Shown here: positions 1-60,120 of the stretch, piece by piece | Layout of the letters: every line of letters starts with the position of its first letter | Position numbering within the stretch: the stretch's first letter is position 1 | Assembly: GCA_029204225.1 (NCBI GenBank) | Contig: CM055110.1 | Span: 42,761,862-42,825,861 of the forward strand | Direction: 5' to 3' | Source of the DNA: Diphasiastrum complanatum | Lineage: Eukaryota; Streptophyta; Lycopodiopsida; Lycopodiales; Lycopodiaceae | Length of the DNA stretch: 64,000 nt | Notes under the pieces: generated by a model | Told to the model about the DNA's origin: nothing | Database searches by the model: none | The model's input: the letters and a program-made list of their open reading frames with translations, nothing else | Position numbers and translations under genes: made by a program

Positions 1-422
1 GAGAGTGCAATGCCTCTGCTACAGTGCCTCTGCTACGTAGGCCCCACTCCATCCAAGGAAAGATATCTCTTGTTTTTCCCTTAGCCCCATCCATCACCAT
101 TAGATGGAGTGGGGCCAGGAGGAGTGTTGGTGAGGTGCACTCCTTAAGCAGCCTTGAGAGTCCCTCGTATCTAAGAGGCACGGGGCCATTTGGCCCCAGC
201 GCGTTGTGAACCACATTTTTTTTAAAAGGCTGCCGAGAGCGCCATGTCACCGATAGAACTTTATTCCATAAACATTTCTTGGAGTTTCCTTGGGCGCCAT
301 ATTAATGACAATGTGCCCACTCTATCACATGAGCTTGGGTGGCTAGGAGATGGGTGCCGATGTTGGTGCATGGGGCTTGGCCACTTGGGTCCGCCGCCTG
401 ACGCCCCGACACCCGAGAGATT

Positions 423-900: not shown

Positions 901-1063
901 CCGCACCAAACGCTAAACACGTGTGGCGCGTGCCTTAAATCGGGAGAGGAGGGGTCTAGAACATTATGAAAGATCAAGTTTGAGAGTGTGAGAGAGAAAA
1001 AAAGTAAGAGCAAGCAAGAAATAAGTGCAATAGGACAGAGGAAGGCCGACAGATCGAGAGATT
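901..1063 (+). promoter_or_regulatory. Presumed proximal promoter and 5' leader of the lectin-like gene
   Basis: This is the stretch between the tandem duplication and the ATG at 1064. It becomes purine-rich (gagagagaaaaaaagtaagagcaag-like) from about 985. No clear TATA box was seen. It is called from position only. Confidence 0.3.
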
Positions 1064-29579: not shown

Positions 29580-30640
29580 GGGGGAGGAAGCATCCGCCGT
29601 GGCGGATGGCTTCCGGAAGAAATCCCAAAGAAAATACACGAAAGAATCTCGAAAATCCCCGAAAAAGACATCTGTAAAAATCCTCGAAAAGATCCCAAAA
29701 ATCGACAAAAATATCTCGAAAATCTGAGAAGATGCCGAAAAGATCTCCCAAATTTACGAAGAAATCCCGAAAATCCGCGAAGATGCCGAAAAGAAGCCAT
29801 TTGTTGTGGCGGATGGCTTCCCCCAGAATCTCTGAAAAAATCCATGAAGATCAAAGAAAATACACGAAAGAATCCACAAAAATCTCCGAAAAGAACTTAA
29901 AAATTCTGGAGGAAGCCATCTACAGCGGCGGACGGCTTCCCCAAGAAACCCCAAAGAAAATACACGAAAGAATTTTGAAAATCCCCCAAAAAAAACATCC
30001 GCAAAAATCTCCGGAAAGATCTCGAAAAGATCCCAAAAAGATCTTGAAAATCGACAAATTTTTTTTCGCAAATCTGCACAAATGCCGAAAAGATGTCAAA
30101 AAGATGTCGAAAAAATCCCCGCAAATCCACGAAGAAATCTCGAAAATTCGCGAAGATGCCGAAAAAAAGCCATCCGCTGCAACGGATGGCTTCCTCCAGA
30201 ATTCCCAAAAAAATCCGCGAAAATCAAAGAAAATACACGAAAGAATCCGCGAAAATCCCCGAAAAGAACTTAAAAATTCTGGAGGAAGCCATCCGCCACG
30301 GCAGATGGCTTCCCGAAGAAATCCCAAAGAAAATACACGAAAGAATCTCGAAAACCTTCGAAAAAAACATCCCCGAAAAGATCTCAAAATGATCCTAAAA
30401 AATCTTGAAAATCGACAAAAAAATCTCGAAAATCCACAAAAATACTGAAAAGATCCTCGCAAATCCATGAAAAAATCTCAAAGATCCGCGAAGATGCCGA
30501 AAAGAAACCATCCACCGCGGCAGATGGCTTCCTCCAAAATCCCCAAAGAAATCCATGAAGATCAAAGAAAATACACGAAAGAATCCGCAAAAATCTCCGA
30601 AAAGATCCCGAAAAGAACTTAAAATTTCTGGAGGAAGCCA
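29580..30640. repeat. Palindrome-bearing tandem array 1
   Basis: Repeated CGAAAATCCCGAAAAGATC-like sequence is punctuated by palindromes of the CCATCCGCC...GGCGGATGG type at about 29591, 29796, 29911, 30168, 30288 and 30505. The same classes recur at 29796/30168/30505 and 29911/30288, a higher-order period of about 340-375 bp with two palindromes per unit. The first is a perfect 8-bp stem (CATCCGCC/GGCGGATG). Long Phe/Arg/Ser-rich minus-strand frames and Lys-rich plus-strand frames are by-products. Confidence 0.9.
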
Positions 30641-30642
30641 TG

Positions 30643-30925
30643 GCTTGATGAGTTGTACAAAACTGAGAAACGCAAACAAGAATTGATGAGTTGTACACAA
30701 ACAAGAGAAAAATGAGAAACGTAACTTGGCTTTGTGAACTATATTGAAATAAAAAATGAAGACATAGATTGATGAGCTGTACACAAACTGAGAATCGCAC
30801 GCAAGGATTGATGAGCTATACACAAACAAGAGAAAAATGAAAAATGTAACATAGCTTGATGAGCTGTATAGAACTAAGAAATGTAGTCATGGATTGATGC
30901 GTTGTACACAACTTAGGAAAACTAT
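30643..30925. repeat. Degenerate minisatellite GATTGATGAGCTGTACACAA
   Basis: About six imperfect units of GATTGATGAGYTGTACACAAAC followed by an A-rich GAGAAAAATGAGAAACGTAAC tail. Spacing is irregular, about 35-70 bp. Confidence 0.8.
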
Positions 30926-31199
30926 ATAAGCTGAGCCATTTCAATCCATGTTATTTTAATCCAAACTTGTATTTGAGAGGCTTTTGTTCAAGCAGTTGCA
31001 GATCATTTTTAGAGGTCGTTTTTTATTCTCGTTTACATGATGTATATGTATTTTTGAAAATGTGTTGAAGAAGGAGTTAGCCATGAGGTTAGGGCAGCTT
31101 GGAGTGGATTCAAGTCCCCCAAAGACACAAAAAAAAGTTTCAATCAAATTTTTAACCTCAATTAGTTTTCAACAGAATTAGTTTCTAACTTTCATTAGT

Positions 31200-32700
31200 T
31201 TTGAAACAAAATTTATTAAAAAAAATTTGAATGAAAGTCCATCCGTCACGGCGGACGGAACCTCCCTCTTAGATAGACTTTCATAGCTGGAATAAGCTGG
31301 GAAGAGAGCGACAGAGAGAGATAGAGAGGGGTGAGGGGAGGACAGACGACTTTCTCCATAATTTTTCTATGTTTTTTCTTAAAAAAATCTTGTTGTTTTT
31401 TTTTTAAATGTAGAACTGAATTTCTAAGAAAAATCTTTAAAAAAAATTCATAAAAAAACAATTGGAGAAAGGTCCATCCACTTTGGTGGACGGACTCCCT
31501 CAAAAAAATTCAATGTAAAATTGTTTTTTTAATAAAAAAAAATCATTTAAAATCAATTTGTGAAAAAACAAATTTGGATTGGGGTCCATTCGTCGTGGGA
31601 CAACCCCTTAAAAAAATTTCAAATCCCGAAAATCACGAAAAAATCGCGAATAAAACCTGAAATCCCGAAAAAATTCCGAAACTCTGAAAACCCCGAAAAT
31701 TTTTTAAAATCATGGAAAGAAAACCCCGATAATGTGGAAAACCATCCGTCGTGACAGATGGCTTCCTCCATTTTTTTTCTCAAAAAAAGAACATCCCGAA
31801 AATTATGAAAAAAATCGCGAATAAATCCCAAATATATCCCAATATATTTCTAAGAAAAACCATTAAAAATCAATTTGTAATAAAACAAATTTGGATTGGG
31901 GTCCATCCGTCACGGCGGATGGACAACCCCTACAAAAATTTCAATTCTCGAAAATCCCAAAAAAAATCGCGAATAAAACCCGAAAAAACTCGAAATACTG
32001 AATAAATCTCGAAACTCCAAAAACTCCCAAAAATCTCAAAAAAAAAATCTGATAATGTGGAAAACCATCCGCCGCGGCAGATGACTTCCTCCATATTTTT
32101 TTTTTCTTTAAAAAACGAACATACCAAAAATTACAAAAAAAATCGTGAATAAATCCCGAATATATCCCGATATATTTCTAAGAAAAACCATTAAAAATCA
32201 ATTTGTGATGAAACAAATTTGGATTGGAGTCCATCCGCCGCGACGAATGGACAACCCCTAAAAAATTTTCAAATCCCGAAAAAAATCGCGAATATAACCT
32301 GAAAAAATCTGAAATCCCGAATTAGTCCCAAAACTCCAAAAACTCCAAAAAATCCAGAATCACGAAAAAAAAAACCCGATAATGTGGAAAGCCATCCGTC
32401 AAAGCGGATGGCTTCCTCCATATTTGTTTTTCAAAAAAAGAACATCCCAAAAATTACAAAAGAATTTGCGAATAAATCCCGAATATATCCTGAAAAATAG
32501 CGAAAACCCGAAAATCCCGAATAAATTCCAAAAACTCAAATACTGGAAAATCAAAAAAATCCTCAATCCCGAACCCCCAAATATTTTGAAAATCAAGAGA
32601 AAACTCGAAAAGGTCCGAAAAATGTGGAAACCCTTCTTAAAAAAAAAAGAATTTTTGGAAGAGGTCCATCCGCCGCGGCGGATGGACCCCCTAATAAAAT
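31200..32700. repeat. Palindrome-bearing tandem array 2
   Basis: Two palindrome classes alternate. GTCCATCCG...CGGATGGAC occurs at about 31238, 31472, 31583 (degraded), 31901, 32230 and 32664. ACCATCCG...GATGGCTTCC occurs at about 31741, 32064 and 32391. Matching positions repeat every 318-329 bp (31583/31901/32230 and 31741/32064/32391), giving a unit of about 325 bp with both classes. Between them lie AATCCCGAAAAAATC-like islands and an AAACAAATTTGGATTGGGG block. Confidence 0.9.
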
Positions 32701-32759
32701 TTCAATATCCACTTTTTTTATTTAAAAAATTATTATTTCTCAAACAGACTTTAATCCCT

Positions 32760-39674: not shown

Positions 39675-40138
39675 TGTAAAGACCACTAGGGACAATCCCC
39701 TAAGTTGAGGATAGGAAAACACAAGAGAGACTGTGGAGCAAAACCACCCAACCAAACCTAGATCTAGCTCCCAAGCCATGCCAATGTGACAACAAGAGGA
39801 GAAGAGCACATCGGGTAAGCTAGACCAAGTCGTCGACGGAATAATCACTACCTCAATATATAGAGAGTAGGATCCTATGCATGAGTCCATGCAATCCCTA
39901 TATAGGTCAACTATAAATAGGTTACAGCTCTACATGCATACCTCCTGCCTACATCAGTCACATATGAATGCACTACTCCATATGTCTCAATTAGAGTGTC
40001 TGGGTCCTCTCAAGGTCATTAGTCACCAACATGCCTTGACTTGGAATAAAATAGGCGTGACCACTAATCTCGAACACTAGAGGGCCGGTCTACCATATTA
40101 GAACTATTCCATATCCTTAACCGAATATAGTCGTAACA
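39675..40138 (-). mobile_element. 3' LTR of the LARD-like element (464 bp)
   Basis: Reading on the minus strand it begins TGTTACGACTATATTCGG and ends GGTCTTTACA. It is very similar to 45869-46358. It lacks about 23 bp (a CCCTCCTGAAGAATCC-containing piece) present in the other LTR. Confidence 0.92.
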
Positions 40139-40155
40139 TTCTTCCTCCCTTAAAC
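40139..40155 (-). promoter_or_regulatory. Polypurine tract of the LARD-like element
   Basis: The minus strand reads GTTTAAGGGAGGAAGAA directly before the 3' LTR. Confidence 0.8.
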
Positions 40156-43100
40156 AGGTTCTGTCCTCAGAACGGAAAAAAAAAAAACATGAAACTATTC
40201 CTTAAGCTTTCAAATCTTTCCCATGAATCATTATTCTTATTCTGATCTTTCCATCTGAATAAGCACTCAGAGATGCAACAATTCTTTAATTGCTTGCCTC
40301 TACTCATGAATACTAATTCAAATTCCAAAAGATACACTAAGCTATAAATCTTCCAAATGGGTTGATCTACTCCAAATCAAAAGTTCATCACCTTCATGTA
40401 ATCCTAATTACATGAACCACTGGGTGAATTAACTTCTTTATTTTAGAGATCAAGTCCAAAAGCTAAAGAAATTCCATTTCAATTTCTTGTAGAAAATAAT
40501 GCTTCTTGATACCAGTATTCTTAGAATATCCAAATATTCTAAAATATTACAATTCAGTCATCTGAAATCTCTAGGAGATCCATCAAGTCTCAGACAATCA
40601 TAACTCAAACCAGAGTATTGCAGTTACTCTAATGAGTTAACAGCCCCATTTCTAGCATCATATGCAAGAAATCAGATCTATCCGTATCTTAATAGATTTA
40701 TCTGTCTCCTACAAAACTGGACATGTAGATTGAACTTTGTACACAGGCACTTATAGACTACAATTTGTAAGGTAAGAAAATTCCTCATAAGTAAGGAATC
40801 ACTTAATGAAAATGCCTGTAAGATCCACTCAATCTCAAGTATGCACTGGAGTAAAGAAATTTAGAGTTCAACCAAATCCTTTACTCTTCCATATTGATCA
40901 AGAATTACTCATTATCTTAAGAATCCTCATATTTTCTTATAATCTTCAAATGATCTTTAAGTATCAGTTTATGATCCGTCAATCATAAACATTTAGAATC
41001 TTATGATTCGTCAATCATAATTTACAGGATTCCAAAACCATACTTAATCATTGGAAGATATTGGAGTATATGTACAACATACAACTCAAAGAATATAAAA
41101 AATCATTCTGAACTCTTTTCCACAAGGAAAATCACTGGATTTCAAGAATATTCTTCCAAACCAATTCTTAATCAGATTATGAGTTCCAAATTCTACAATC
41201 AACCAAGTAATTAAAGACTATTATAACATTCATCTTTAACAATGTAAACTTTATACAATCTCCTAGAGCAACATCTAGAGATTTCAAAGTTCTATTGAAT
41301 TCCCAAAATTCAGTTTACCATTCTTGGCACCATTAGGATCTGGTATCCAATTGAGCTCACTGGGATACTATCACTAATGAATCAAGTCTATTTCTCAATT
41401 GAGAAATACTCATCCAAGAAATCAGTTTCCTATGCACACAATTCCTTAATGAATCTGAATGACTCATAAATTATGTGTCTTACAAGCAACACACACAAAA
41501 CAAACAGTTTCTGGTGAATTCTCTTCACACTATCTGTTTTACCAATTAACTTCCACAGGAGTAAATCAACTACTCAAGTTAATTGCTCATGACTTAGAAA
41601 TCATAAATGTCTAGGTGCAGATCTTAATTGTACAGTACAACACCACATTTAGATCCATATCCAAATCACATTTAAGCTAACCTATAGATCTATAAAAACA
41701 GATCTGTTAATTCTGCAAGTAATTGTCAAACACAATACTTGATTATATGTCTATGTTCATCAACTAGGTTAAGTGCACCAAATAACCTTAGTAACCAGGA
41801 ATACATAGCAGATCCACACAAGATTAATCGTGCACATATGAGAAAAATCTTACTATGACCCAGTACATAAACACATATGTCTTTATCTGGCAGATTCCTC
41901 CAAAACCCGCATATGTTACTCACATATCTCACTGAGAATCTTGTAACTCAATTACAGAAGTTTCTATTTCTCTTGAGTAAATAACATATGGGAGATCTCT
42001 GAAGTGAATAATTCCACATCACAAGTTTTCCAACCATCATACTTTTATCAACAAAATTCCTTCATCCAATCAACCTACTTCAGATCTTAGTGCACAAACC
42101 AAGATTAGGCTGACTTATACAGACATCTTTGGACAAAAGGTTCAGATTAAAGCTTTATTCCACTGATCCAATCCATAACTAAATGGTATTTGGGTGAACC
42201 TTAATTCAATCTTTACCACTACTTCCCATATTCATGAATATTTCACAACTCAAAAATTTCCCAAACTCCTCTAATTCCAAATTATTCAAAATAAATCACT
42301 AGAGATTTTCTCTATTCCACTGGATAGTTCCACCATTGCACATAAACTGGATTCCACAAAAGAAATCTATGCAACTGGTTGATCCCATGAAAGTTTGATT
42401 TCTATTATTTTCTTCTCTCCCTTTTAAAAGAAATTTCATAATTTCGATCAAAAAGTTCTCAGGAGACAACGTATAAGATATCAAAAATTCGAAAAAGTCA
42501 GTAATGACTATTACAAACCGGATTTTTTTCTTAAAATCATAAAATATCTTATCCCGAGTGATAGAAACATTACTCTCAATAATCAGCTATCAAATAGAGA
42601 TAATAATCTGGGCTCAGAAAGTCTAAATTCCACTTAATCAATTGATTCTGAGCTATATTCACAAACCTGAAATGGAAGCATGAATTCATATAACTTAAAC
42701 AGTCCTTCAGAATCTAGTTCTACACTGGAAGGAATTATATGAATCTCAATCCAATTATCTCGTATATAAGAAATTTCTAAAAAGTAGAGGTTCAAAATTA
42801 AAGAAGTAGCTTTTAAGGATTTCCGATTTGGAATTTATGAGATACCATTGAGAGATCCGGATCTATATCTCATAACCTCTCCAAATACCCTAAATAGGCC
42901 TTACCAATGGTTTCAACTGTTAGCATTACTATTAATGTAAATACTACCCATTGGCCTACAGATCATTCTCGCACAAGAATTTTCTCTTTGAAATCACTGA
43001 TGTCCCATACCACCAGTTTTCTCTCCAAGAAAGCCCTTTGCTTTTAGATCCCACCATCAGAAAATCAAAAAGACTATCTGACCATCCTATATCAAATATA

Positions 43101-45855
43101 GGGTCCAATCTTCAAAAAGATCTAAAATCACATTATCCGATATTCCAGAGATCTTAAAAACTCTATCTAGATTTTCAATACCAGATATGCATATATCTAT
43201 TCCACCAAATACTGGAGTATCCCCATATTTGTTCCCAATGGATCACAATAATCCATTAACAAAATTGTGATTTAACAAGAATCAGCACATGGTTTTACCG
43301 TCACATAAAACAACCCCTATGGTTGGTACTAACATCCCAAATTCCTAGCATCTGAGAGTTACAACTCTTAGGAATAAGATACTTTAGAGTACAAATGTGA
43401 ATCAAGTGTCATTCTCGTTCCATTTCACAATTTCCAATAACAAATAGGGACAACTCATGGTCCTATAGATATTCAAAATAAATTCAACTTAGTGAATTCA
43501 AAAATCCGGTGTTATGCAATTTCCTTACAAAGATTCTTAACCAACCCAAATTACACAACATTATCACATTTACCTACTCAGGTGTCTCATTTTCTTCCTC
43601 CCTTAGATTTTTCGGTCATTCGAAATTTCTTTTAGCAAAGGTCCCCGAAAATTACTTAGGCACAAGTAAATGCTAGGCTACTCCCTTTTTTACCACACCA
43701 GTTTATTTTCATTACTTCGTTAAAGTCGTCTGAATCAATGAAAAATCAATAATATTTGGATCCAGATACTCTTTACGATATTCGATACACTTGTTTTTTT
43801 AATCGAATATAGAGCTATCTCCCAAAAATTACAACCTTATTCCATTTATTCACTTTAACAAGTAAATGAAAAGCTTTAATTTGCCTTATCTTTAAAGATC
43901 AAAATCATTTAAAATAAGCCTATCGATGCACACTGAGTCCAAAAGGAAGAACCAAAAATATCATTTAACTCAATTAACTGGGAATATTGCTACTCCAGAG
44001 TTAAACCGATAAAAAGCACAGTACTAGGAACCCGAAATTCCACTAACTGGGTACTTGCCTAGAAAAAATTACCATGAAAAAATTCTATTGTCAATCCTAA
44101 ATCCATGGATCCAATCACATGGGAAAAATGTTAGGATAATAGAATTTATTTTCTCAACAAAACCTCGAAAAAGAATTCGGAATATAGGTAATCCGGGTTG
44201 CGTAACCATAAAACTGTTACGAATAGCCAAGCATTTCCCAAATGCTCCAACCTCCTTTGCAAAAACAATGGAATCCATGCAACCATAAGGCTACCATCAT
44301 GCACAACTCAGTGAACTAACTGAGACCTTCATCCACATGTTTTACCATGCAACCAGAGGAAAGCAAGAAGTAAAAAAAACTTCATGCAAATCCAATAAAG
44401 GCCTCCCAAAAACCTAACATCAAAAGTTAGGTATTGTGCCTTTTCAGCCGCCATACACACAAAATCAGTTTCCTGCCACCATACACACAAAATCGGGGAT
44501 GCAGGCAGTCGCACCATCGAGAGAGAGATTCACATCCTTGAGACAGAGATTTCAAACACGGTAAGGTTCTGAATCGCACATTAACGATCCATTGAAAGGT
44601 CTCCACCGTTCTCCATCGCAGGGATAGGACTACCATCTCCAACAACGACCGGTTGTGGTCAAGTTTACCTCCAAGTTTGAGATCCGAGGTAATGTATGCT
44701 GCTCATTATTCAAGCACTTCCCACATTCACTTCAAAAATCGTTTTTACAATGATCTTGCCCTCTCCATAAAGTAAGTGAAAGACGCATGATTATTCATTC
44801 AAAATAATCTAACAGATGCATCTTCTGTCTGCACTCACAACAAGAAAGGGTGTTTAGCACAGATCATAAGATTTGAAATGAAAGGAAGGGTGAGCAGTGT
44901 CTCATGACATCATCTATCCCATCCTTCAGAAGACAAAGAAACAGCTACGGTTTGCCTACTGCCTTCTAAATTTACATGCAGGCAGAGCAAAGCCTGACTA
45001 CTTCCTAGCCCATGGTGTTCTCTATCTGCAACTCCTATGCAGAAAAAAAAAAATTGAGAAGACCACAACAGAGCTAGCACCCGCTATCCCATAGCTTTCA
45101 AAATCAAACCAAAGCTTCAAATCTCAAAAACGAGTTTGAGAAAACTCAAAAGCTTGTTTATGGCACAAAAACCAAAGTCACATCTTACATGCATCAAATC
45201 TGATTCACAGGCTCCACCAGAAAGGTAAAATTACTCCACAAGAACCAGATTGCATGTACCCACTATCAAAAGTCTAAATCTGCCACAGTTTAGAGAGTCA
45301 CTAATTTACAGTATCCAATCTATGTTTTCAGTTCTCAGTTCACAGTTTACATGCTTCACAAGAGGATTAGTCTAAGAACCTTAAATCCTCTCATGCAAAC
45401 CGTAATTTCAAATTTCTAGCAGCAGTCAGCTTATTCATCCAGGATAAATCGATTCCTCGTCAATCTATCAACAAATAGCCTGCTACTTAATTTGGATCAA
45501 ACTGTCCAAAACATTATGGATTCATGCAAATCACTCATCTAAGAAAAACAAATTTAAACAAGAAAGTGGATCTCTTCAAGCAGATCATTCTACTTCAAAC
45601 GAAAATTTTTCCAAGGCTTCAGAAAATAAGAATGGATTCCACACTAATTCACAGCGTCTCTAACAGAATCAAACAAGGAGAAGAGCACTCTACCACCAAG
45701 TTTGGAAAGCATGCCACAACCAAGAATTAGTGAATCCAATTCCAATTTTCTTTGAAAAAATAGCACACCATCCGCGATGTAAATCCAAGTGCATTCCCAT
45801 TCCGATTTGATGTAGAACTTCTCTCTGTCCCATCCAAAAACCGCATCTTAGTCGG

Positions 45856-48768: not shown

Positions 48769-49590
48769 TGGGGTCGAAGATCTTTTGTAGTATAGCCCTT
48801 CTGCCTGTCAACAAAGGTTAGATCACTAGATAGGTGCCTAACTATGCATAGATGCTACTTTTAGTTAATTTCCTACTTTCTCCCTTAACTCTACTCACCA
48901 CTATACTACTCCTCTTTAACTCTACTCCTCTACACTAACATTCATCATAGTTTTGGTTGAAGGGAAGGGATGGAGAAGAAGAGATTGAGAAGAGAAGAGA
49001 AAGAGAGAGAAAGAGAGTGAGGGTGAAGGTTAGCTCAAATGCTCCTTATGCTTGCTAATGGAAAAACATTCACTATGGCAAACAATAAGACATGGAAATA
49101 GAAAGCAATAGAAAACACAACCAAGAGCAATAGCAAGTAGTTAATACAAATGAGGATGCTTCTCTTCCAAAAATGGTAGAGTTTCCTCCTTCTCATTAAG
49201 CATGGAAATAGTGTACAAATGGTGCCTTTTTATAAAATGGAGAAGGCCCTTGCCCCTCAATCTTATTGGCTAATATTCACAATGATCCTAACCATTCATC
49301 TTGGACCCAACTTGATCCAAGGGTTCACAAAAAGTACATTAGAAATCACAAGATTCATGTGAGTCCCAATTTGGACCCAACTCTAAAAAGTGATCTCTAA
49401 GTTTTAAAATGACATTGGGCCTCTAGTTTTATTTTTATTACAAGGCCCAAGTCAAGTTTATTTTATTTACAACTTCAATTGCGTGCTCATTGGGCCATGG
49501 GCTTATACACGCAGGATGCCATGCCCTCGCAACACAATTTATTGGATAATTTTATTTATTTACACTTTGTTGGGAATACCCCCAACAACA
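48769..49590 (-). mobile_element. 5' LTR of the minus-strand gypsy element (about 820 bp)
   Basis: On the minus strand it runs from TGTTGTTGGGGGTATTCC or TGTTGGGGGTATTCC (49590 or 49587) to GACCCCACA (48769). It holds a purine-rich GAGAAGAGAAGAGAAAGAG stretch at about 48975-49015. It is inserted into the copia gag relic that starts at 49591. Only one LTR copy was seen. Confidence 0.75.
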
Positions 49591-49706
49591 ATCTCCATCA
49601 ACTCATTCATCTCCAATAAGGACTCCATCCTCACCTTCCAAGTTGAATAGTTGATTGACGTAAGCCTATCATTGCTCTCCAACATAAAACCTCCACTTGT
49701 AGCCAT
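49591..49706 (-). pseudogene. Copia gag N-terminus (39 codons)
   Basis: ATG at 49706 begins MATSGGFMLESNDRLTSINY, then STWKVRMESLLEMNEL, the opening of Ty1/copia gag (F.G.NY..W...M...L). It is cut by the gypsy LTR at 49590. The leader to the primer-binding site at 50284-50297 is about 580 bp with no other gene. Confidence 0.8.
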
Positions 49707-50283
49707 GTTGAAGTGACCTGATCTTTCTCTTTCAACCTATTCCAATGCACAAAGCACTCTCTTGAATTTCAACAAATGAACTCAAGAAGAAATCACAAAG
49801 ATATGGAACCTCTCAAATATCTTCTAGCAATTCTAACTAGAAAATCAACACATAGAATAGTCAAATCTTAATCAACCTATGATCTATCCTCAATCTAATG
49901 ATTCTTGCCACTTCCTAAGATTGAAACACACTCAGTAACCTCACAAAGTAGAGATCCAATCAAAATTAGGGTTTTGACAAAATCACAAAAAATTGAATAT
50001 CTCAAATTCTACGTGCAATTTCTAGAAACTTGATATATCTTATTGTAGACTCCAATGAGATCTTCCTAATGCACCAAAAATCATCTAAATCCAGTAAACC
50101 AAGTGTAAAATCAAAATTGATCAAGTATATAACCCTATATTGAGTTTTGACCTACAAAAGATCAATTCTACACATGCAAAAATGTTGATTTTTGAGTAGA
50201 AATCAATCTAGCATGCTCTAGCATTGGTAACTCCTCCAAATCCTTGCTAAAGATGGCTGATCCTTTCATAACCTGAAACATAA

Positions 50284-50297
50284 GAGCTCTGATACCA
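50284..50297 (-). promoter_or_regulatory. Copia primer-binding site
   Basis: The minus strand reads TGGTATCAGAGCTC directly after the LTR end CCTTCACA, complementary to initiator tRNA-Met. Confidence 0.92.
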
Positions 50298-50941
50298 TGT
50301 GAAGGATTTCAGATCATTCAAGATCCAATCCATGTCCCTGATCTTTGGTTACAATAAGGAACAGACCACCAATCCTGCCAATGTAGAAAAATCAGCATCT
50401 ACATACAAAATGAGATGCAAACTCTAAGTGATACTGATCAAACATGAACCAAAACATAAAAAATGTTTGTTGTCCGTACAATTACAGTACCCTACTGAAT
50501 GTCACACGTGTGAAACCTAAAATAACAAAATATGAGCATTCTACACACAAGATTGCAAGATAACATCAAGAGAGTGCACCAATGAGTAGTAGAACCCAAA
50601 GAGAACCATGTATAATGATGAAATGAGAGAGAGAAGAGAGAAGATGTGTCTCTCCATGACTTACATCCTTTTATAGAGTTTTCAAACCCTATTTGGCCAC
50701 TTGGCTTTCCCTCCAAAATGTAAACCCTACTATTTTTGGGTCTAGATTCAATGTACCCAAAGTTCAAATTTGAATCTCTCTCAAACTCGACTACCAACTT
50801 TCCCACACTTTCAAAAAGAGTTTATTGAATGTATTTAAAACTAATATAACTTCAAAAAGTTTATCTCTAAGTCTAAAATGAGTTTTGGTCTTTTATTGAC
50901 AATTTACCAAAATATGACTAAACTAGTTGAAATCTCTCACA
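50298..50941 (-). mobile_element. Copia 5' LTR, minus orientation (644 bp)
   Basis: The minus strand runs TGTGAGAGATTTCAACTAG ... CCTTCACA. It contains CTCTATAAAAGG as a TATA box (complement of about 50670). The LTR at 57349-57991 is the same family in the opposite orientation and looks about 97% identical over the parts I compared. The 104-codon frame inside it is an LTR frame, not a gene. Confidence 0.9.
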
Positions 50942-51299: not shown

Positions 51300-54200
51300 G
51301 AAATTAGTCAATTGTTAAGATCACTGTACCCTTCACTTTTAGTTGAAGATTTTGTGAATCTGTCAATTAAGGAGCATTTCTTGTTCTGGGAATCAATAAG
51401 GACCAAGAATAATGTAAATCCAATAGAACAATTTTATGCTGATCTATAAGGGGATTTTCCAGGGATTAAGTGAGGCACTTAATGAACAAATCAAAACTGT
51501 TAGAAAATAGTGCTAAAGTTAGCGATACCAAATTGAACTTTTTCCTAGTACAATTTTGGGATTTTGTTAACCGGAACCATTTTTGGAAAGAAAAAAAAGT
51601 GGAATTCTGATATGTAGATTATTGCTGGCCTTAAGGATCCAATTATTTAATTTACATTCAATTCCTGAAGTATAACTAATTGCAAGTGAGAATAAAATTG
51701 GAAATTATTTAAGAAGACTGCCTCTGGGAATTTGGATTCCTTTTCCCCAGTGTGAATTAGAATTTCGAGAATTCGAGGATTCTAAGGGAAAAGTAGTGGC
51801 AAGACTGACAATCCATTTATGGAATCATCTCTGTTTTGCAATTGGATTTGGATCTTGCCAAGTAATGCAGATAGAAGGTGTTCCATACATGAATCTAGTA
51901 ATTTGGATTCTTTTCAGTTATAGAGTATTTCTCTATAATGACAGTAACAACCAAGAGAGTTCTAACTTGTTAAAAGAATCAAGTTCTTTTTATCGATTCT
52001 GGAATAGATATCGGATATTTGGGACAGTATGATATTTGGTTTTGTTAAAATCTATGGTCCTTTTGGGTTAGGATACATTCTATTGTATTGGGATGATACA
52101 TTATGTTTACCCATGTTAGGTACAATATGAAATGGTATTCTTTGAGTAACACTGAAGAAGCATGAGAGATTTCAATTGTTAGGATTATTTCTTGGAATTG
52201 GTTGTGAATTTGATCCTATATATGGGCATAGGATAGCCAAATTGTCTTTTTTGACTTTTTGGACAAAACTACAGAGAATTCTTTGAGGAAAAGCTGGTGG
52301 TATGGGACATCAATGATTCTAAAGGGGATTTCTTGGGTAGAATGATCTGTAGACCGATGGTTAGTGATTGTTGTAATGGTAATACTAACAGAGTCCATTG
52401 GTTTTTGTTAAGGGTATTTTGAAAATTATGAGATATAGATCGATCCCTAAATCGTATCTCATTAACTACAAAATATGGAAGCCCTTACATCTATTTCTCT
52501 ATTTTATTAGACCTCTACTCTTTAGAAATTTCTTATTACATGACAATTTGTGGATATTTGTCAGTTTATAACCTATGTTTATGTATAGGAGCATAGTTGG
52601 ATAAGTTGCTTATGTACATCTTAATCTTGTGGATCTACTATGTGTTTCCTATGTACTGAGTTTATATCATATACTTAAACTAGTCAGAGTACGTAGACAT
52701 ATGAACAAGTAATGTGTGGAACAGTTACTTGCAGGTTAATGTCTCCTTCTGTGGAAAGGATAATTCATTAACTTATTTATGGTTTGGAAGAAGTTCTAAA
52801 TGTGGTGTTATACATGTATAATTGAGATCTGCACCTAGACATTTAAGATTTCTGAATCATTTACAATTGACTTGAGTAATTGGATTACTCCTTATTAGAA
52901 GTTAATTGGATAAATAAGCAGTGTGAAGAGAATTCACCGGGAACTGTTTATTTTGACCTATATTGCTTATAAGTCACATGATTAGTGAGTCATTTGGATT
53001 CATTTATGAGAATTGTGCATAGAATATAGAAGATTCTTGATATATAATATTTCTTGAAGTAAAAATATCCTAAGTTATTGACTATATCCCAGTGAGCTCA
53101 TATACATACATTGGATGACAGAGTCTAATTAATGTCAAGGATAACCACTGAATTCAATTGGAAATCAGCAGAACTTTATAATCTCTAGATGTGGTTCTAG
53201 GTGATTGTATAAAGTTTATCATTTGTTAAAGACAATCACTTAATTGATTGTAGAATTTGGAACTCATAATCTGGTTAAGAATCGAAGTGGAAGAATATTA
53301 TTGGAATCTAGTAATTTTTCTTGTGGAAAAGATTTCAGAATATTTCTTATATTTCCTGAGTGGTATGTTGTGCATATACTCTAGTATCTCTAAATGATTA
53401 AGTATGGGTTTAGAATCCGATAGATTATGATTGACGAATCATAAGATTCTAAATGTCTATGATTGACGGATCATAAATTGATACTTAAAGGTCATTAGAT
53501 AATTATATGGGAAATATGATGATTTTTAAGATGATGAGTAATTCTTGATCAATTAGTGGAGTTAAAATTTAGATTTGTTATTGAGCTCTAAATTTGTGTA
53601 CAAACTTGAGATTGTTTGGATCTCACAAGCATTTTCATTAAGTAATTGTTTACTTATGAGGAATGTGCTTACCTTTACAGATTGTAGTCAAGGAATGCTT
53701 GTGTACTATTTTTCAGCCTAAAATCTCTGGTTAATTAGGAGCAGTTAAGTCTATCAAGATTGAATGGTTGCTATTTTCTGGTATCTGATGCTAGGGATAG
53801 AGCACTTATCTCAGGAGAGCATCTGGGGTACTCAGGACTGAGTTGAAGTCATTTTTATCTTGATGGATCTCCTAAGAGATTTTGGTGGGATGAGTTTTGT
53901 ACCAAAAAGCATTTATGACAGGTCTACAAGTAATTGTGGATAGTCTTGGACTATAATTGTTTTGGATCTTTAACTTTTTAGCATTGATTTCCAATATAAG
54001 GTGAGGACTACCCCAGTGATTCATGTAAATTGAGGTACATGAAGGGGATGTTATTAGATTGGAGAGAATCAAACCCAATAGGAAAATTTATCTTTTCGTG
54101 TACTTCTAAAAGGTCGATATAGTATTTCAGTGTAGAGATAGATAGTTGGAGAATTATCCCATCTCTAAATACTTATTTGATATTAAAGTCATACTAAAGA

Positions 54201-54561
54201 TTGATTTTTAGGGTAATTGTGAAAGTTAAATGATTGATTTATTAGCTTTTAAACTTAATCTTCAAGTTTGGTCGATTGCTCATCCAATGTATCATGTAAA
54301 TTTGTTTATATGATGATGACAGTTTGATGTATTGAAGATTTTGCCCATTTGGAAGATTTATCGCTCAATGTACCTTTGGACCCTGAATAAGTACTCAGGA
54401 TCAGAGATAAACAATTGAGAAATTATTCTATCTCTATGTGCTTGCTTAGGTTGGTTGGTCAAATTGAGGATAATGATTCATGGGAGAGTTAAAAGCATAC
54501 AAATTGGGTTTTCCCTAGTTACTCGTTCTGAGGACAAAACTGGTTTAAGGGGGGGAGAATG
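51300..54561 (+). mobile_element. Truncated relative of the LARD-like element, opposite orientation
   Basis: AT-rich DNA without long frames, homologous to the complement of the interior of 39675-46358. Examples: the paired GATTGACGAATCATAAGATTC / GATTGACGGATCATAAA segment (53445-53475) matches about 40973-41020, and 52290-52380 (GGTGGTATGGGACATCA...AGAATGATCTGTAG) matches 42960-43010. It ends in a polypurine tract GGTTTAAGGGGGGGAGAA at about 54541-54558. The left limit is uncertain and the 5' LTR is missing. Confidence 0.8.
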
Positions 54562-54778
54562 TTACGTCCATGTCCTGTATAAGGGAATCGGAATAATTCC
54601 TGACGTGGATAGCCGGTCACTCTAGTTGTATATGGTTATTAGTTATGCCTCGTCATTCCGGGCTTGGCCTGTAAAGTAATTAATAATCATATGAGGACCC
54701 AGACCTATAATTGGACATAGGAGCACATGCATAGTGAATGACTGCCTTAATGCAAGAATAGGAGGTTAATAGCTCTAG
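54561..54778 (+). mobile_element. Truncated 3' LTR of the second LARD-like element
   Basis: Starts TGTTACGTCCATGTCCTG after the polypurine tract and keeps landmarks of the 39675-40138 LTR (GGTCAC.CTAG, ATGAGGACCCAGAC), but diverged. It is cut by copia sequence at about 54778. Confidence 0.75.
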
Positions 54779-56928
54779 GTGGTTCTGATTCTCTTTTGAT
54801 GTGTTCTTCAAGTCCAATATCAAGTGAAGGTGACAAAGATTCATGGTGGATTGATAGTGGAGCTAGTTCACACATGACTAGTCACAAGGAGTTCTTTACT
54901 TCTTTGGTCACTTATGATGGAGCCAAGAAAGCAATTCACATGGCCAATGGTGGTGAGTGTGTGATTAAAGGTATTGGTTCAATTCCTATTTGTCTCTCTA
55001 CTGATAGGAAAGTAAGACTTGATGGTGTTCTTTACATTCCTTCACTTTCAAAGAATTTGTTAAGTGTTGGTCAAATGATAGAGAAAGGATACATGGTAAA
55101 GTTTGGTGGTGATGCTTGTTTCATTACAAAGGAAGAAATCTTGGTTGCTAGGGGCAATAAACAAGGTAGACTTTTCAAGCTTGATGCTTTTGTTATGGCT
55201 AGCAACAAGGATGGAATGGAAAAGGAGATTGGTCTCAACTTTCCAAAGTTACCTTTTAGCATCAATAAGATTGGTGGATCTTATGCAAAGTCTAAAAAGC
55301 TTCCTTATGCTATATCTAGGTCAAGATCTAATATGCTTCTTGGATATGTTCATCTTTGTCCTAACTTGGCTAGCCTTGAGGATAATGATGGTGTTTCAAT
55401 GCCTCTTCATGGCAAGTGCAAGAATGCAAAAGGTAAGGAAAGAGCTAACTTCATCAATGGAGGTGAAGGTTCTTCCTTGAAAAAGATTGTTGTTAATGAT
55501 TTCTTTGATCATATGGAAAAAGATGTTGCTAGGTGCATTCATGGAGGAGATGGTTCTTCTAAATTCTTTTCTGATGATTCCAAGAAAGTCATTTTTCCAG
55601 CAAGTGGAGTCACATGTCTTCATAAAGAGAGTAGATCAAATGGTTCTATCAAGAGACTTGGTGAGGGAGATAGTCACAAGTCAAGGAGAAGAGAGGTATG
55701 TGAAGAGTTCAAAGTTGGATGTACTTTGAAAGATGTAATTGAGAATGATAGTGAGGAAGAATCATTATCATATGAGTCATTACCTAAAACATTGAGTAGA
55801 AGTTCTTGTTTGAAAAAAGAGAGTACTTCAATTATTCTTATGTTGAAGGTACTAATCATTTTTTTCATGGCTTCTAATGTTTTTGAGGTCTCTACTTCTT
55901 ATGATGCAATCATTAAGAGAGAGTCTTATGAAGGAAAGAGCAATGGAAGATTGGTTCTCGGGAAGATCCAAAGCATGGATCTCACATCTCTTCATCAACT
56001 CAAAGGATTCTATGATTGTGAATTGATCACTCATGATCGAGATGGCAAAAGGTTGGTTGGAGAAGACTACATGGAGCAAATCGAGAGGCAATTTATTCAA
56101 GACAAGGGAGATCTCATTGGTGAGCTTATTGAGGTTTGTTATGGACTCAAGAAGGCTGGATTTATTAGGTTTGATACTCATCTTCACCTACTCTACTTCA
56201 TGTTGGATGGAAAGTTTGGAATCCATCTTTTGATTTATGATGGTGACATTGGTGACATTGTTTTCACTAACCTTTGTGGAAATTCAAGATCAAGCATTGA
56301 TGAGATCTTGTTGGATCTAGATCATATGTTTGAGAGGGAGTATTTCCAGTGGTTCAGGTCTAAAGATATTCATATCTTTGATATCTTTGATGATCAAGAG
56401 GAAGGTAATCAAGTGGAAGCGACTCACTTTGCTTTACTCACATGTTTTGGAATATTTTCTTGTGTAGATGATGCTATGAAAGTGGATATTGGTTCTCATG
56501 GTTTATATACTAGAAAATCAAGTAATGGATCTGGAAAACAGATTTTGTTCAATGACTTTGATGGTCAAGAGGAAGATCAAGAGGTTGGTCTCAAAGGGCT
56601 TCAACAACACAAAAGGAAAGGTGGCAATTTGGAGCTAGTCAAGAGCATCAAAGAAAGGTTATTTGGAAAATATGTTGTGGATCTATGTTTGCAGCTTATT
56701 GAAGACTCAAGTAAGGTCAAAGAAACAGCAAGAAAGTGTTGTTCAAGTTTACTTTACTTGTTTTATCTCATGTTTGAGCTATTTCATGTGGATGTGTGCA
56801 AATTGTCAAGATATGGACAAACTAGCTACATTGTCTTGCAATATCTTATCGTTGGAGTTGTACTAGCATTCTTGGCTGGTTTTGCTGATGGAAATGAAGT
56901 ATTGGAGGTTCATTATGTCACTCATTAA
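54778..56928 (+). CDS. Copia-derived Pol-like polyprotein, open frame with altered catalytic motifs
   Basis: One unbroken frame, first ATG at 54796, 710 codons. The N-terminus is a clear copia protease (SWWIDSGASSHMT, then LDGVLYIPSLSKNLLSVGQM). Traces of later Pol follow in order. HLCPNLASLED and the Cys region are GAG-pre-integrase-like. SIKRLGEGDSHKSRRREVCEEF sits where integrase has its RSD.GGEY catalytic segment, which is replaced. EDYMEQIERQF and LIEVCYGLKKAGFI match the RT YMEQPEGF and LYGLKQ positions. LLIYDGDIGDIVFTN is where RT has YVDD. Most of the RT N-terminus is absent. Two hydrophobic stretches (LKVLIIFFMASNV; YIVLQYLIVGVVLAFLAG) could be membrane segments. Enzyme activity is not expected, yet no stop occurs. 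The 5' LTR and gag are missing. Confidence 0.75.
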   Translation, partial: GGSDSLLMCSSSPISSEGDKDSWWIDSGASSHMTSHKEFFTSLVTYDGAKKAIHMANGGECVIKGIGSIPICLSTDRKVRLDGVLYIPSLSKNLLSVGQMIEKGYMVKFGGDACFITKEEILVARGNKQGRLFKLDAFVMASNKDGMEKEIGLNFPKLPFSINKIGGSYAKSKKLPYAISRSRSNMLLGYVHLCPNLASLEDNDGVSMPLHGKCKNAKGKERANFINGGEGSSLKKIVVNDFFDHMEKDVARCIHGGDGSSKFFSDDSKKVIFPASGVTCLHKESRSNGSIKRLGEGDSHKSRRREVCEEFKVGCTLKDVIENDSEEESLSYESLPKTLSRSSCLKKESTSIILMLKVLIIFFMASNVFEVSTSYDAIIKRESYEGKSNGRLVLGKIQSMDLTSLHQLKGFYDCELITHDRDGKRLVGEDYMEQIERQFIQDKGDLIGELIEVCYGLKKAGFIRFDTHLHLLYFMLDGKFGIHLLIYDGDIGDIVFTNLCGNSRSSIDEILLDLDHMFEREYFQWFRSKDIHIFDIFDDQEEGNQVEATHFALLTCFGIFSCVDDAMKVDIGSHGLYTRKSSNGSGKQILFNDFDGQEEDQEVGLKGLQQHKRKGGNLELVKSIKERLFGKYVVDLCLQLIEDSSKVKETARKCCSSLLYLFYLMFELFHVDVCKLSRYGQTSYIVLQYLIVGVVLAFLAGFADGNEVLEVHYVTH

Positions 56929-57353
56929 TGGCCAAGTCATCAAGTATTGATGATATATTGTGGCAAGATGGAGATGGAGGCTCATTCATGGAGTTTTATA
57001 GTGGAGACATATCAAGAAAGGACAAAGTTGGAGGAGACAAGCAAGCAAATGGTCATCACTCACATTTATTGTTTGGTTGCTGTAATTTTCTAGAGAGTTC
57101 AAATTTTGAAACATGGAGGAATCATTTCATTCACATTCTATTTGGTTCTTCATGTTCTAGTTATATCTGGATGTGTAAAATTGATGTAAGAAATAGTGAA
57201 GCATCCAATTTGTACACTATTCTCTATATCAATTATGAAAGATACTTCAGAACCTTAGAAAGGAGATCTATACTTGGGATGGAGATCATTCTAAAGTTGG
57301 ATCAAAGTTCTATTGTCAAAACTATGCCAAAACTAGTTGAAGAGGGAGTGTGA
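56928..57353 (+). CDS. Second ORF of the copia-derived element (overlapping TAATG)
   Basis: 141 codons. The ATG at 56928 overlaps the upstream TAA (TAATG), and the stop lies at the LTR start. It has an acidic start (SSSIDDILWQDGDGGSF), a Cys/aromatic middle (LLFGCCNFLESSNFETWRNH; IHILFGSSCSSYIWMCKID), then TILYINYERYFRTLERRS and SIVKTMPKLVEEGV. No known domain. By position it replaces the end of Pol or RNase H. It could be a shifted continuation of the first ORF. Confidence 0.5.
   Translation: MAKSSSIDDILWQDGDGGSFMEFYSGDISRKDKVGGDKQANGHHSHLLFGCCNFLESSNFETWRNHFIHILFGSSCSSYIWMCKIDVRNSEASNLYTILYINYERYFRTLERRSILGMEIILKLDQSSIVKTMPKLVEEGV
57336..57348 (+). promoter_or_regulatory. Polypurine tract of the copia-derived element
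   Basis: GTTGAAGAGGGAG immediately precedes the LTR start TGTGAGAG. Confidence 0.75.
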
Positions 57354-57991
57354 GAGATTTCAACTAGTTTAGTCATATTTTGGTAAATTGTCAATAAAAG
57401 GCCAAAACTCATTTTAGACTTAGAGATAAACTTTTTGAAGTTATATTAGTTTAAAATACATTCAATAAAATCTTTTTGAAAGTGTGGGAAAGTTGGTAGT
57501 CGATTTTGAGAGAGATTCAAATTTGAACTTTGGGTACATTGAATCTAGACCCAAAAATAGTAGGGTTTACATTTTGGAGGGAAAGCCAAGTGGCCAAATA
57601 GGGTTTGGAAACTCTATAAAGGGATGTAAGTCGTGGAGAGACACATATTCTCTCTTCTCTCTCTCATTTCATCATTATACATGGTTCTCTTTGGGTTCTA
57701 CTACTCATTGGTGCACTCTCTTGATGTTATCTTCAATCTTGTGTGTAGAATGCTCATATTTTGTTATTTTCGGTTTCACACATGTGAAATACAATAGGGT
57801 ACTGTAATTGTACAGACAACAAGCATATTTTATGTTTTGGTTCATGTTTGATCAGCATCTCTTAGAGTTTGCATCTCATTTTGTATGTAGATACTGATTT
57901 TTCTACATTGGTAGGATTGTTGGTTTGCTCCTTATTGTAACCAAAGATCAGGGACATGGATTGGATCTTGAATGATATGAAATCCTTCACA
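57349..57991 (+). mobile_element. Copia 3' LTR, plus orientation (643 bp)
   Basis: TGTGAGAGATTTC ... CCTTCACA. TATAAA lies at 57615-57620, followed about 30 bp on by the likely transcription start region. It is the same family and nearly the same length as 50298-50941 in the opposite orientation. The 107-codon frame inside is shared with that LTR and is not counted as a gene. Confidence 0.92.
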
Positions 57992-60120
57992 ATTAGCCTA
58001 GCCACTAGGAAATCTGCTTTTTGAACTAGAATTGTCAAAAATAGCTTCATGCAAGAAATCTTCTGATCAAACTACTAATTACGCATGCAACATGCATCCA
58101 TGCATGCATACAGGTTTATCCATACATTTTCATCAATACATTTTCATCAACAGACAAGCACAACATTGAGTTACAAACATGCATGCATCAGAACATTTCA
58201 AAAAATTTGTAAATTTTAGCTCAAAAATTGCCAAACTTTCGACAGCCATAACTTTCTCTACAGAACACCAAGTTGGTTGCTGTAAAGCACAGTATGGAGG
58301 GAGAGTGAGTCTACAAGGCACTTGCCATGTCACCCTGCACCCTTGGCTTCACACATACGAGCAATAAATGCATGAAAAACAGGTAGGAGGGCGCACTTTT
58401 GTGGAGAGGAATCTTCAAAAATCACATCCCAGCCCAATAAGCCTTGGATCAGAGGTTACAAGCATTCTACTAAGGTTCATTAGAGAGGCATTGAAGCTTC
58501 TAACAGGTCCAGAAAGCAATCATAAGCTCAGATCATGCAAAAAATGCATTTTTGGCTCAACAAGCGATAACTTCAACATGATGGTGTCTTATGCTCACCT
58601 ATCAAAATTGGCCTCCTTCAACAAGCAAAACTTCAACATGATGGTGTCTTATACTCACCTATCCAAATTGGATGCATGATGGCTCAAAACAGACGCAATC
58701 CATCATATCTTTAAGCTTGTAACAAGAACCAACAGGTTCAGACCCCCAATTGAGAGGTATTCATGCTCAAAAATCATCAAAAATACACTAATTTTTGGTG
58801 TTTTGAGCCCCCTAATGGTGTCTAATCCCTTTTAAACTTCATGACAGCTCAACGACAGCTTCATTACATCTCTGAAAACGTCCATACCAAGTCTTGTCTG
58901 AGAATTTTGAGATCTACCCCAAAATTAGTCCAAAAAACATCAAAAAACCTTGGTTTTTGACTAATTTTGACCAAAATTTGTGGGAAAAATCCACAAATTC
59001 GTGCAATCAGATCCAAATCCCTGTAAATATTAGAGGAGTTCTAAATCCAAAAAAGACCCTTTGTAAAGATTCTTTTTATATTTTTTCTTACACATGGACC
59101 AATCAAAACACTCAAATTTGAAATCTACGTAACGTAACTTTTTGAGTCCACATTTTGATTCCACACTAAAAATGGCATAGATTTTTAGCGGTAAGTCCAA
59201 ATTTAGCGAAGTTTGGTGCATTAGAAAGCGCTCGACAAGGGCTTTCCAATGATATGTTAGATGACATACTTTTGAGCTACAATTAAAAAGTTATGGCAAG
59301 TCAAAAATATTAGTGTTATAATATTTTAATAATATAAACAACATCTTGCACGAATTCTTAAAGGGTATTTTTGAAGCTCAAAACTCCTCTAATGTCCATT
59401 GCATGCAATCACCAAAAGTTTTGATTCTAGTCAAACATGGTTTCCATAGCCCATTTATGGTCCAAAAAAATTTTTGGTCCAAAATCACTATCTAATCCAC
59501 CTTTTGACTATTCCAGCATCATGCAATCATTAGATCCAATCAATAATGACTATAAAACAGCAAGTACAATCTGGAAAACGTACTACACCAATACCTATGA
59601 TCAATTTCAAGCAAAAAACTTCAATTCTAGGTGAAAAATTCACTAAAATCATCAAAAATCCATAGATTTCTACCAAAAACTATGGAGAAACCCCATAATT
59701 ATGATCTTTAGGCTGAAAGTACACCAAATTCAGAGAAGCCACCTACTTGGAGATCAATTCCACCACTTGGAAGTAACATGCAAGGAGAAATCACATTCAA
59801 TCAGTGATCTGATCCTATAGGCTGATAGAGCTTGTTGTTATCTTTTCAAAAGTACTAAGTTTGTGTGATTTGAATCAATATTGAGGAAGTTATGATCAAA
59901 TTAATGGAAATGGGTCAGACTAGCTAGAATTTTGGAAATTCTTTTACAAGTGAGAGAGAAACACTTCAACTTTAAAGTTCAGTTTCTTTGTAAAAAAATT
60001 TTAGTTTCTTCATTCTGAAGTTTCAGAGTTTTAAAAAAGAAAAACCTAACCCTACCTACCTACAGCTTCAACTAAACCTAGCCTAACCATAAGCCCTAAA
60101 TAAAAACTTTAAAAGAAAAA
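57992..60120. other. No gene recognised; one short duplication
   Basis: AT-rich DNA. CTTCAACATGATGGTGTCTTAT occurs at 58571 and 58631, a 60-bp imperfect direct duplication (about 58562-58681). Many AAAAATC-type short words occur but no ordered array. Confidence 0.5.

Follow-up and report, generated by a model that had tools for sequence, protein, structure and literature searches.

RLG_Quinta of einkorn wheat, whose partner is RLG_Cereba, is a centromeric Ty3/gypsy element that encodes Gag and a further product, DUF1; its LTR ends and primer site are common to the autonomous partner, and recombination between the lineages has been described (PMC11302176). The family analyzed here is likewise a non-autonomous LTR element: its Gag is intact, a further coding stretch has no known function, and neither reverse transcriptase (RT) nor integrase is present. 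Unlike Quinta, it belongs to Ty1/copia, encodes a protease, and has a tail that is much longer and bears weak Pol traces. The description of DUF1, in the part on which we draw, includes no test of constraint on the frame versus constraint on the amino acids (PMC11302176). Wheat RLG_Sabrina_SA, termed "semi-autonomous," also has an intact Gag-Pro ORF without RT or integrase; however, it is a Ty3/gypsy element, and the portion of its account cited here describes no long open tail after the protease (PMC9744471). Non-autonomous wheat RLC_Angela is a copia element like the present one, with non-autonomous copies tied to an autonomous family, but its coding sequence is reported to be strongly degenerate and rich in frameshifts and stops, whereas young copies of the family described here are open (PMC9744471). 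TR-GAG elements are similarly non-autonomous with an intact Gag ORF, and one of them, a copia, transposed in Arabidopsis ddm1; as described, they consist of a single Gag ORF, to which the present family adds protease and an in-frame tail of 700 to 770 codons (PMC8704663). TARE1 of tomato, considered as a counterpart, is a different case as far as its source describes it (PMC3701649).

Features of the window

The window, i.e., the whole 64,000-nt stretch of Diphasiastrum complanatum DNA that was analyzed, contains what sequence comparison identifies as a 5′-truncated copy of a high-copy Ty1/copia family. Family homology begins at 54774, identity to the complete copy L014 is 94.9% across 3232 bp, and searching the 1.74-Gb assembly yielded at least 40 scored matches to the element, the window itself counted. 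The features are as follows (positions of the window).

54774..57993, + strand: 3′ portion of the copia-family element, equivalent to positions 2089-5320 of L014
54796..56928, + strand: 710-codon open frame, protease plus tail, 5′-truncated (stop-to-stop frame, 54751-56928)
54844..55092, + strand: aspartic protease region (DSGASSHMT; Pfam Pol_BBD, residues 17-99, E 4e-25)
55231..56439, + strand: X-mid, ~400 codons (converted from L014 codons 438-840)
56440..57353, + strand: X-end, ~305 codons (converted from L014 codons 841-1145)
56928..57353, + strand: "second ORF" of the original prediction, the tail shifted out of frame by a 1-nt indel
57349..57993, + strand: 3′ LTR (TG...CA), with a polypurine tract before it
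49586..50941, − strand: 5′ portion of a same-family element, inverted, 94% identical to L014 positions 1-1376

The single uninterrupted 710-codon frame of the original prediction is indeed present without a stop, and the protease motif at its start sits inside the Pol_BBD match. The separate second ORF, said to overlap the first as TAATG, turned out to be the same tail displaced by the 1-nt indel of the window copy, which lies close to family-frame codon 994. A fixed two-ORF layout is ruled out, since other copies read straight through. The family stop codon corresponds to LTR bases 3-5, at 57351-57353 in the window copy. The inverted element comprises the 5′ LTR (50941-50298), the primer site, the leader, and the start of gag.

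Structure and relatives of the family

Complete copies (~5.3 kb) display Ty1/copia features: paired TG...CA LTRs, a tRNA-type primer site, and a polypurine tract. Target duplications of 5 bp are frequent, identical 5-bp flanks being found in 8 of the 13 LTR-paired copies. LTR pairs were compared in these 13 copies, with 0/652 differences in L014, L024, and L025. The primer site in LTR-paired copies is TGGTATCAGAGC or a near variant, for which the tRNA assignment is our assumption. Intact copies have one frame of about 1,088 to 1,203 codons that runs from Gag through protease and the 700- to 770-codon tail to a stop inside the 3′ LTR. Pfam searches with full copies placed Retrotran_gag_2 (8.9e-22), zf-CCHC (zinc knuckle), and Pol_BBD (4.1e-24) above the cut-off and DUF4219 below it.

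The same genome is rich in relatives whose integrase is uninterrupted and in relatives that have retained RT. Among the scored integrase matches listed, 148 of 150 contain no stop, and an RT-start pattern had 1,193 genomic matches versus 0 for the reversed control. The copia gene order was pieced together from separate relatives, with Gag-protease-integrase in L032/L035 and RT in L041. The latter, read in its 3′ half, has RVT_2 matches (1.9e-31 and 8.4e-39) flanking one stop, ends on the same in-LTR stop, and carries an LTR 79% identical to that of the family over 599 bp. The genome also holds a second RT-less family, in which the RT-deletion junction was found in 9 of 12 loci (L029, L037, and L038 were unmatched by the expression used). 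In L030 and L031 of this second family, a stop inside X-end precedes RNase H remnants, so that their frame falls short of the LTR.

Intact integrase, RT, and RNase H, as expected of an autonomous copia element, are not found in the family, whose intact, constrained Gag and protease without RT or integrase correspond to a Sabrina_SA-type element; the in-frame protease and tail depart from the Gag-only ORF of TR-GAG. TRIM and LARD elements are, by definition, without coding capacity, whereas this family has a long coding frame. In Sirevirus-type copia elements, Pol is followed by an envelope-like ORF with conserved membrane-spanning segments. Here, the strongest X-end hydrophobic segment (KD 2.44) is lost in both second-family sequences tested, with values of 1.45 for L030 and <1.4 for L033, which rejects a conserved membrane protein and leaves the hydrophobic segments pointed out originally without standing as a membrane feature. 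The family is best read as a semi-autonomous Gag-protease Ty1/copia element, most similar to the known wheat cases Sabrina_SA and Quinta. The earlier call of a non-autonomous element with a long ORF and no polymerase is right.

Content of the tail

It had been proposed that the tail keeps the Pol order. What stands of this is weak similarity to the integrase region and RT: the tail scored 85 against the start of the L036 integrase region (best of 200 shuffles, 60) and 65 against L041 RT (best shuffle, 54), while a Pfam search of three tail pieces gave no match at E ≤ 10. The integrase similarity extends over ~100 residues at the start of the region, and the reading of LGEGDSHKS as an integrase motif is not borne out because the alignment to L036 misses the catalytic core. 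The RT YVDD position reads YDGD in the alignment to L041, which is itself weak. Agreement of the last part of the tail with RNase H is confined to the final 11 residues. X-mid shows faint integrase-region and RT traces, with the DNA match to relatives limited to 31 nt. An ordinary Pol in a shifted frame was checked by alignment and is not the case, as only these 31 nt match relatives' DNA across codons 430-841 and other frames gave no convincing match.

The Pol reading does not extend to the last 305 codons (X-end), which correspond to Pol in none of the relatives seen and are 84% identical in DNA to a segment of the second RT-less family. X-end is absent from the 3′ end of the RT-bearing relative L041, except for its last 44 nt, which are 91% identical. 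The tail was modeled with AlphaFold2 at a mean pLDDT of 26, which is uninformative, since the method failed as well on an intact integrase piece for which the alignment was shallow (32).

Openness of the frame

The tail of L014 has 0 stops in the coding frame, against 20 and 94 in the remaining frames, and shows base periodicity of the coding type. Chance openness is ruled out by simulation with a dinucleotide model, in which 50 stops are expected per 750 codons and the minimum in 2,000 simulations was 33. Other copies, which the original prediction called for, exist in large numbers, and many of them are open. Among 40 young loci picked by Gag identity, 39 have frames of 1,088 to 1,203 codons in eight length classes, which are not 39 independent events because young copies stem from few source lineages; one of the 39 has a stop listed in its match, and the fortieth (C14:701727) is in neither tail list among the matches listed. 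Of 53 young loci in the tail-similarity list, the frame is shorter in two (1,061 and 991 codons). In the 20 fetched copies, the frame is open from gag to the LTR in 4 and the tail fully open in 10; stops are carried by 21 of the 40 full-length matches listed, many of them older copies.

Length changes involve whole codons both within the family (171 and 174 nt) and between families (9 and 12 nt), and segments of 57 to 58 codons have been gained or lost among copies. The tails read numbered 23, the window copy among them, out of thousands of candidate family members. Three frame-breaking events were found in the tails of the first 20 copies (L011/L015, L017, and the window copy); indels of these copies were kept out of the evidence because similarity to that stretch was the criterion by which they had been ranked. 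Single second-family copies (L034, L036, and L039) have frame-breaking indels in X-end.

Within the family, stop-creating changes in strict context numbered 12 versus 19.3 expected (P 0.039), with another frame also in deficit (25 versus 32.1, P 0.067; shared class, 5 versus 10.5, P 0.027). This version replaced a coarse-context test (singletons, 8 versus 17.5 expected, P 0.0065), relative to which the deficit is weaker. For X-end, fixed between-family changes that create a stop numbered 1 versus 4.9 expected in strict context (P 0.027), compared with 6 versus 4.3 and 8 versus 5.9 in the other frames. Six between-family comparisons of aligned X-end codons, which diverge by 0.13 to 0.16 per site, gave 0 to 1 stops versus 7 to 8 expected; these counts skip gapped codons, so that the L034 and L036 indels fall outside them, and leave out the mostly deleted L039. 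New in-frame stops amount to about 0.2 to 0.6 of expectation.

Tests of selection on the tail

Between families, Gag, nucleocapsid, and protease have ω values of 0.23 to 0.30, with Gag-protease dS of 0.45 to 1.05; Gag and protease are under purifying selection. Gag tests left out the window copy, L011, L015, L019, L022, L023, and L026 (Gag damaged, divergent, or missing). Within the family, ω is 0.92 for the protease, on few changes, and 0.86 for the tail (0.70 for its first part, then 1.01 and 0.97). With ω of about 0.7 to 1.25 overall, the tail is not clearly constrained at the amino acid level. The suggestion of a protein under some selection holds for Gag and protease and not clearly for the tail, where selection looks confined to the open frame.

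Our main reading, to which we give a probability of roughly 55%, is a semi-autonomous Ty1/copia family, truncated in the window copy, with partners acting in trans and a tail held open for ribosomes to run to the LTR. RT and integrase would be supplied by relatives, the family itself would provide Gag and protease, and packaging would rely on its own LTR and leader signals. Several modest tests suggest that copies closing early amplify poorly, which would keep the tail open without clear amino acid constraint. The most likely reason would be a need for ribosomes to reach the LTR. If the frame closed early, as much as ~2.1 kb of 3′ UTR would precede the LTR and the genomic RNA would become a target of nonsense-mediated decay; alternatively, translation would be uncoupled from packaging. 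Long 3′ UTRs are reported to invite decay of plant and retroviral RNA (PMC6277124, PMC5580461). Rous sarcoma virus RNA, as described, similarly faces such decay and has an RNA stability element after the gag stop, whereas the present family would extend its frame to the LTR (PMC5580461); the parallel is one of mechanism, not descent. That translatability alone is selected, with residues and whole segments free to change, closure barred, and ribosome passage protecting or licensing the RNA, is a tentative proposal that we hold at somewhat under even odds.

The tail could instead encode a functional protein that evolves fast, either an extension of Gag or a domain with an accessory or host-antagonist role; selection on it would be diversifying or mixed, so that ω is near or above 1 while stops and frameshifts are rejected. 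The open frame, whole-codon length changes, coding-like periodicity, and ω of 0.70 for the opening part of the tail are consistent with it, as are the replacements among tail singletons (254 versus 237 expected), the between-family ω of X-end (0.99 to 1.25 by NG86; 1.31 to 1.65 by permutation), and the Gag plus domain of unknown function reported for wheat Quinta (PMC11302176). However, the same X-end changes give 1.19 to 1.38 in untranslated frame 1, so that the excess is hardly frame specific; moreover, 57- to 58-codon segments come and go, the strongest X-end hydrophobic segment is not kept between families, and Pfam yields no match. We regard such a protein as rather unlikely.

We consider it improbable that the tail is under no selection and hitchhikes with the selected Gag-protease, open since function loss is recent and copies are young. 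The near identity of young copies, their few source lineages, the stops in many older copies (21 of the 40 listed), and a within-family deficit at P 0.039 only, partly in another frame, fit this idea, but it is at odds with the scarcity of stops in an X-end that has diverged free of amino acid constraint, the full frame of 39 Gag-picked loci in eight length classes, the Gag-protease dS between families, and an X-mid that is barely recognizable yet open. Finally, a cis-acting RNA (packaging, dimerization, or stability) in X-end or another part of the tail, passed between the two RT-less families with openness secondary, would suit the different places of X-end in these families, its 84% identity versus 76% for Gag-protease DNA, its near absence from the L041 3′ end, and third codon positions that are not the most variable class, but it is quite improbable, as folding along one copy was unremarkable (1 of 26 windows below z −2, in X-mid) and an RNA role alone leaves whole-codon length changes unexplained. 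These alternatives are partly compatible, and their odds do not add up to 1.

If the frame alone is selected, this family would separate the openness of a frame from the function of the encoded protein, two things usually confounded in annotation. Such "coding without encoding" would explain long unrecognizable ORFs in some non-autonomous elements, could account for "domains of unknown function" in semi-autonomous ones, and would caution against equating a long conserved ORF in a repeat with a working protein. It would also provide a natural test of long-3′-UTR surveillance shaping retroelement evolution. Three of the copies read have identical LTRs, and Gag is nearly identical across 40 loci; this recent burst makes the family testable in the living plant.

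A Gag-protease-tail family in the window and in the genome

The window holds two parts of a Ty1/copia family in which Gag, protease, and a tail of 700 to 770 codons share one frame in intact copies:

49586-50941, minus strand, family element part, recognized by homology to the family
54774-57993, plus strand, family element part (the window copy), recognized by homology to the family

Family homology of the window copy begins at 54774, and all upstream of the zinc-knuckle/protease linker is missing. The single open frame of the original prediction was confirmed as stated (54796-56928, 710 codons), its sole Pfam match at E ≤ 1 being Pol_BBD, a protease-region model. The overlapping second ORF described there turned out to be the last part of the tail, put out of frame by a one-base indel near codon 994. 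The two parts lie in inverted orientation, flanking a Ty3/gypsy-like relic; combined, they lack 712 bp of the element's middle, and the 5-base flanks read at the pair do not match. Either one element was broken and inverted or there were two insertions.

The search for further copies proposed with that prediction was productive. Within the assembly searched (1.74 Gb, 5,176 contigs), the frame-bearing stretch matches at least 40 scored loci, its own included, from 7,172 candidates, and the other 39 are 94 to 96% identical across the greater part or the whole of its length. For 20 copies, the flanks were retrieved as well. Among 13 LTR pairs compared, those of L014, L024, and L025 have no differences in 652 bases and the remainder diverge by a K of 0.017 to 0.043; a primer site is discernible in these elements, and 5-base flanking repeats are identical in eight of the 13. 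Two-LTR elements measure ∼5.3 kb, and a subtype represented by L011 (near-duplicate, L015) ∼4.5 kb. In four of the 20 fetched copies (L014, L024, L025, and L028), a single frame of 1,145 to 1,164 codons runs uninterrupted from gag to the LTR and includes Gag (with Retrotran_gag_2 and a zinc knuckle), the protease, and the tail; the tail is fully open in 10. The stop codon of the family occupies bases 3 to 5 of the 3′ LTR, likewise in an RT-bearing relative (L041).

Relatives and origin of the tail

A second copia family in the same genome (L029 to L040; L017, oriented 124-3488) is abundant, with uninterrupted integrase and the opposite half of Pol lost. It carries Gag, protease, and integrase, with RT replaced by a segment related to the last ∼305 codons of the tail (X-end). 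This junction was found in nine of 12 fetched loci, integrase lacks stops in 148 of 150 scored matches, and in L030 and L031 remnants of RNase H, lying in a different frame, follow the X-end. An RT-start pattern derived from the junction matched 1,193 places (reversed control, 0). At L041, one of these places, the RT yields RVT_2 matches (1.9e-31 and 8.4e-39) flanking one stop; its LTR is 79% identical to that of the family, and its last codons are similar.

Comparison of the family with its relatives gave 76% DNA identity over codons 0 to 430 (Gag-protease), nothing but one 31-nt DNA match over codons 430 to 841, and 84% identity to the second-family X-end over codons 841 to 1137. Codons 395 to 690 weakly resemble the beginning of the integrase region (score 85, against at most 60 in 200 shuffles), with no alignment to the integrase catalytic core, and codons 690 to 905 weakly resemble RT (score 65; best shuffle, 54); the RT YVDD position reads YDGD in the tail. 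The X-end shows no likeness to RT or RNase H apart from its last 11 residues.

Openness of the tail is not due to chance, because that of L014, a complete copy, has no stops in its own frame (the other two frames contain 20 and 94), versus a mean of 50 and a minimum of 33 in 2,000 draws from a first-order model matched in composition. Its base periodicity is like that of Gag-protease, and the tail therefore probably descends from sequence translated in the same frame. A second frame inside it (L014 codons 394 to 600) is open for ∼126 to 205 codons (20 copies).

Amino acid constraint, weak at most in the tail

Gag, nucleocapsid, and protease have diverged between the two families by a dS of 0.45 to 1.05, at a dN/dS (omega) of 0.23 to 0.30. 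The comparison of dN/dS across copies suggested with the original prediction gave a divided answer within the family, as pooled omega was 0.42 for Gag (14 copies) and, for the tail (21 copies), 0.86, with values of 0.70, 1.01, and 0.97 for the successive thirds of the analysis; protease gave 0.92, on few changes. The X-end yielded 0.99 to 1.25 in six between-family comparisons. The amino acids of the tail thus appear at most weakly constrained. The main rival to the reading proposed below takes the tail to be a fast-evolving protein.

Probable selection on the open frame

We put at roughly 80% the probability that selection keeps the tail open. The figure is no higher because each test is modest, the number of sources behind the young loci is small, and stops are also deficient in one off-frame subset. 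For frame conservation across copies, likewise raised earlier, 40 loci were ranked by near-identity of Gag, a selection blind to the tail; 39 were among the matches listed in tail searches, with open frames of 1,088 to 1,203 codons in eight length classes and a stop listed in the match of one, and the fortieth was absent among the matches listed in both searches. Shorter frames (1,061 and 991 codons) occurred in two of 53 young loci from the tail searches. Large length changes within the family (171 and 174 nt) and X-end differences between families (9 and 12 nt) all comprise whole codons. Indels that break the frame or are large do occur in individual members of the second family (L034, L036, and L039), as expected of dead elements. 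A 174-nt X-end segment, present or absent at a similar place in both families, separates L042, L033, L034, L036, L039, and L040 from L014, L028, L030, and L031, as if exchanged by template switching.

Fixed substitutions between families created one X-end stop in its own frame versus 4.9 expected when trinucleotide context is preserved (P = 0.027), and 6 versus 4.3 and 8 versus 5.9 in the other frames; the single pair L014/L033 gave 2 versus 5.8 (P = 0.041). Within the family, 12 of 529 tail variants created stops (19.3 expected; P = 0.039), with 25 versus 32.1 (P = 0.067) and 45 versus 43.5 in the other frames; the deficient off-frame subset had 5 versus 10.5 (P = 0.027). An earlier, coarser within-family test gave a stronger-looking deficit. 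The next rival is that no selection acts on the tail, neutrality being combined with the youth of the copies.

A proposed need for end-to-end translation

With a Gag and a protease that are both conserved and complete, the family most likely supplies itself with coat and protease, relying on relatives for RT and integrase. It would then be "semi-autonomous" in the sense applied to wheat Sabrina_SA (PMC9744471), and it closely resembles Quinta, in which Gag is accompanied by a domain of unknown function and for which an autonomous partner is described (PMC11302176). A limited literature search of partial texts turned up elements with Gag alone, with Gag-Pro, or with Gag and an unknown region, and among these texts none described a tail under selection solely to stay open.

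We propose that translation would be needed to the element end whatever the sequence, so that a dead tail stays open; such a sequence-indifferent need would account at once for amino acids that evolve almost neutrally, for length changes in whole codons, and for the shortage of stops. Since the stop codon lies within the LTR, an open tail leaves no 3′ UTR ahead of it; a stop right after protease would leave ∼2.1 kb (708 codons). Excerpts of two papers state that long 3′ UTRs favor nonsense-mediated decay in plants (PMC6277124) and that retroviral RNA requires protection from this decay (PMC5580461). Against translation to the LTR, the second-family frame in L030 and L031 ends before it. Another rival is a cis-acting RNA role of the X-end, which occurs at different places in two RT-less families.

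Other features of the window

52208-54741 and 39954-43109, related stretches in inverted orientation (69 to 74% identity), which we take to be gypsy-like
16026-17024, plus strand, stop-to-stop frame of 332 codons, its product presumably resembling a plant syntaxin
29583-32710, degenerate tandem repeats in which each strand carries long open frames
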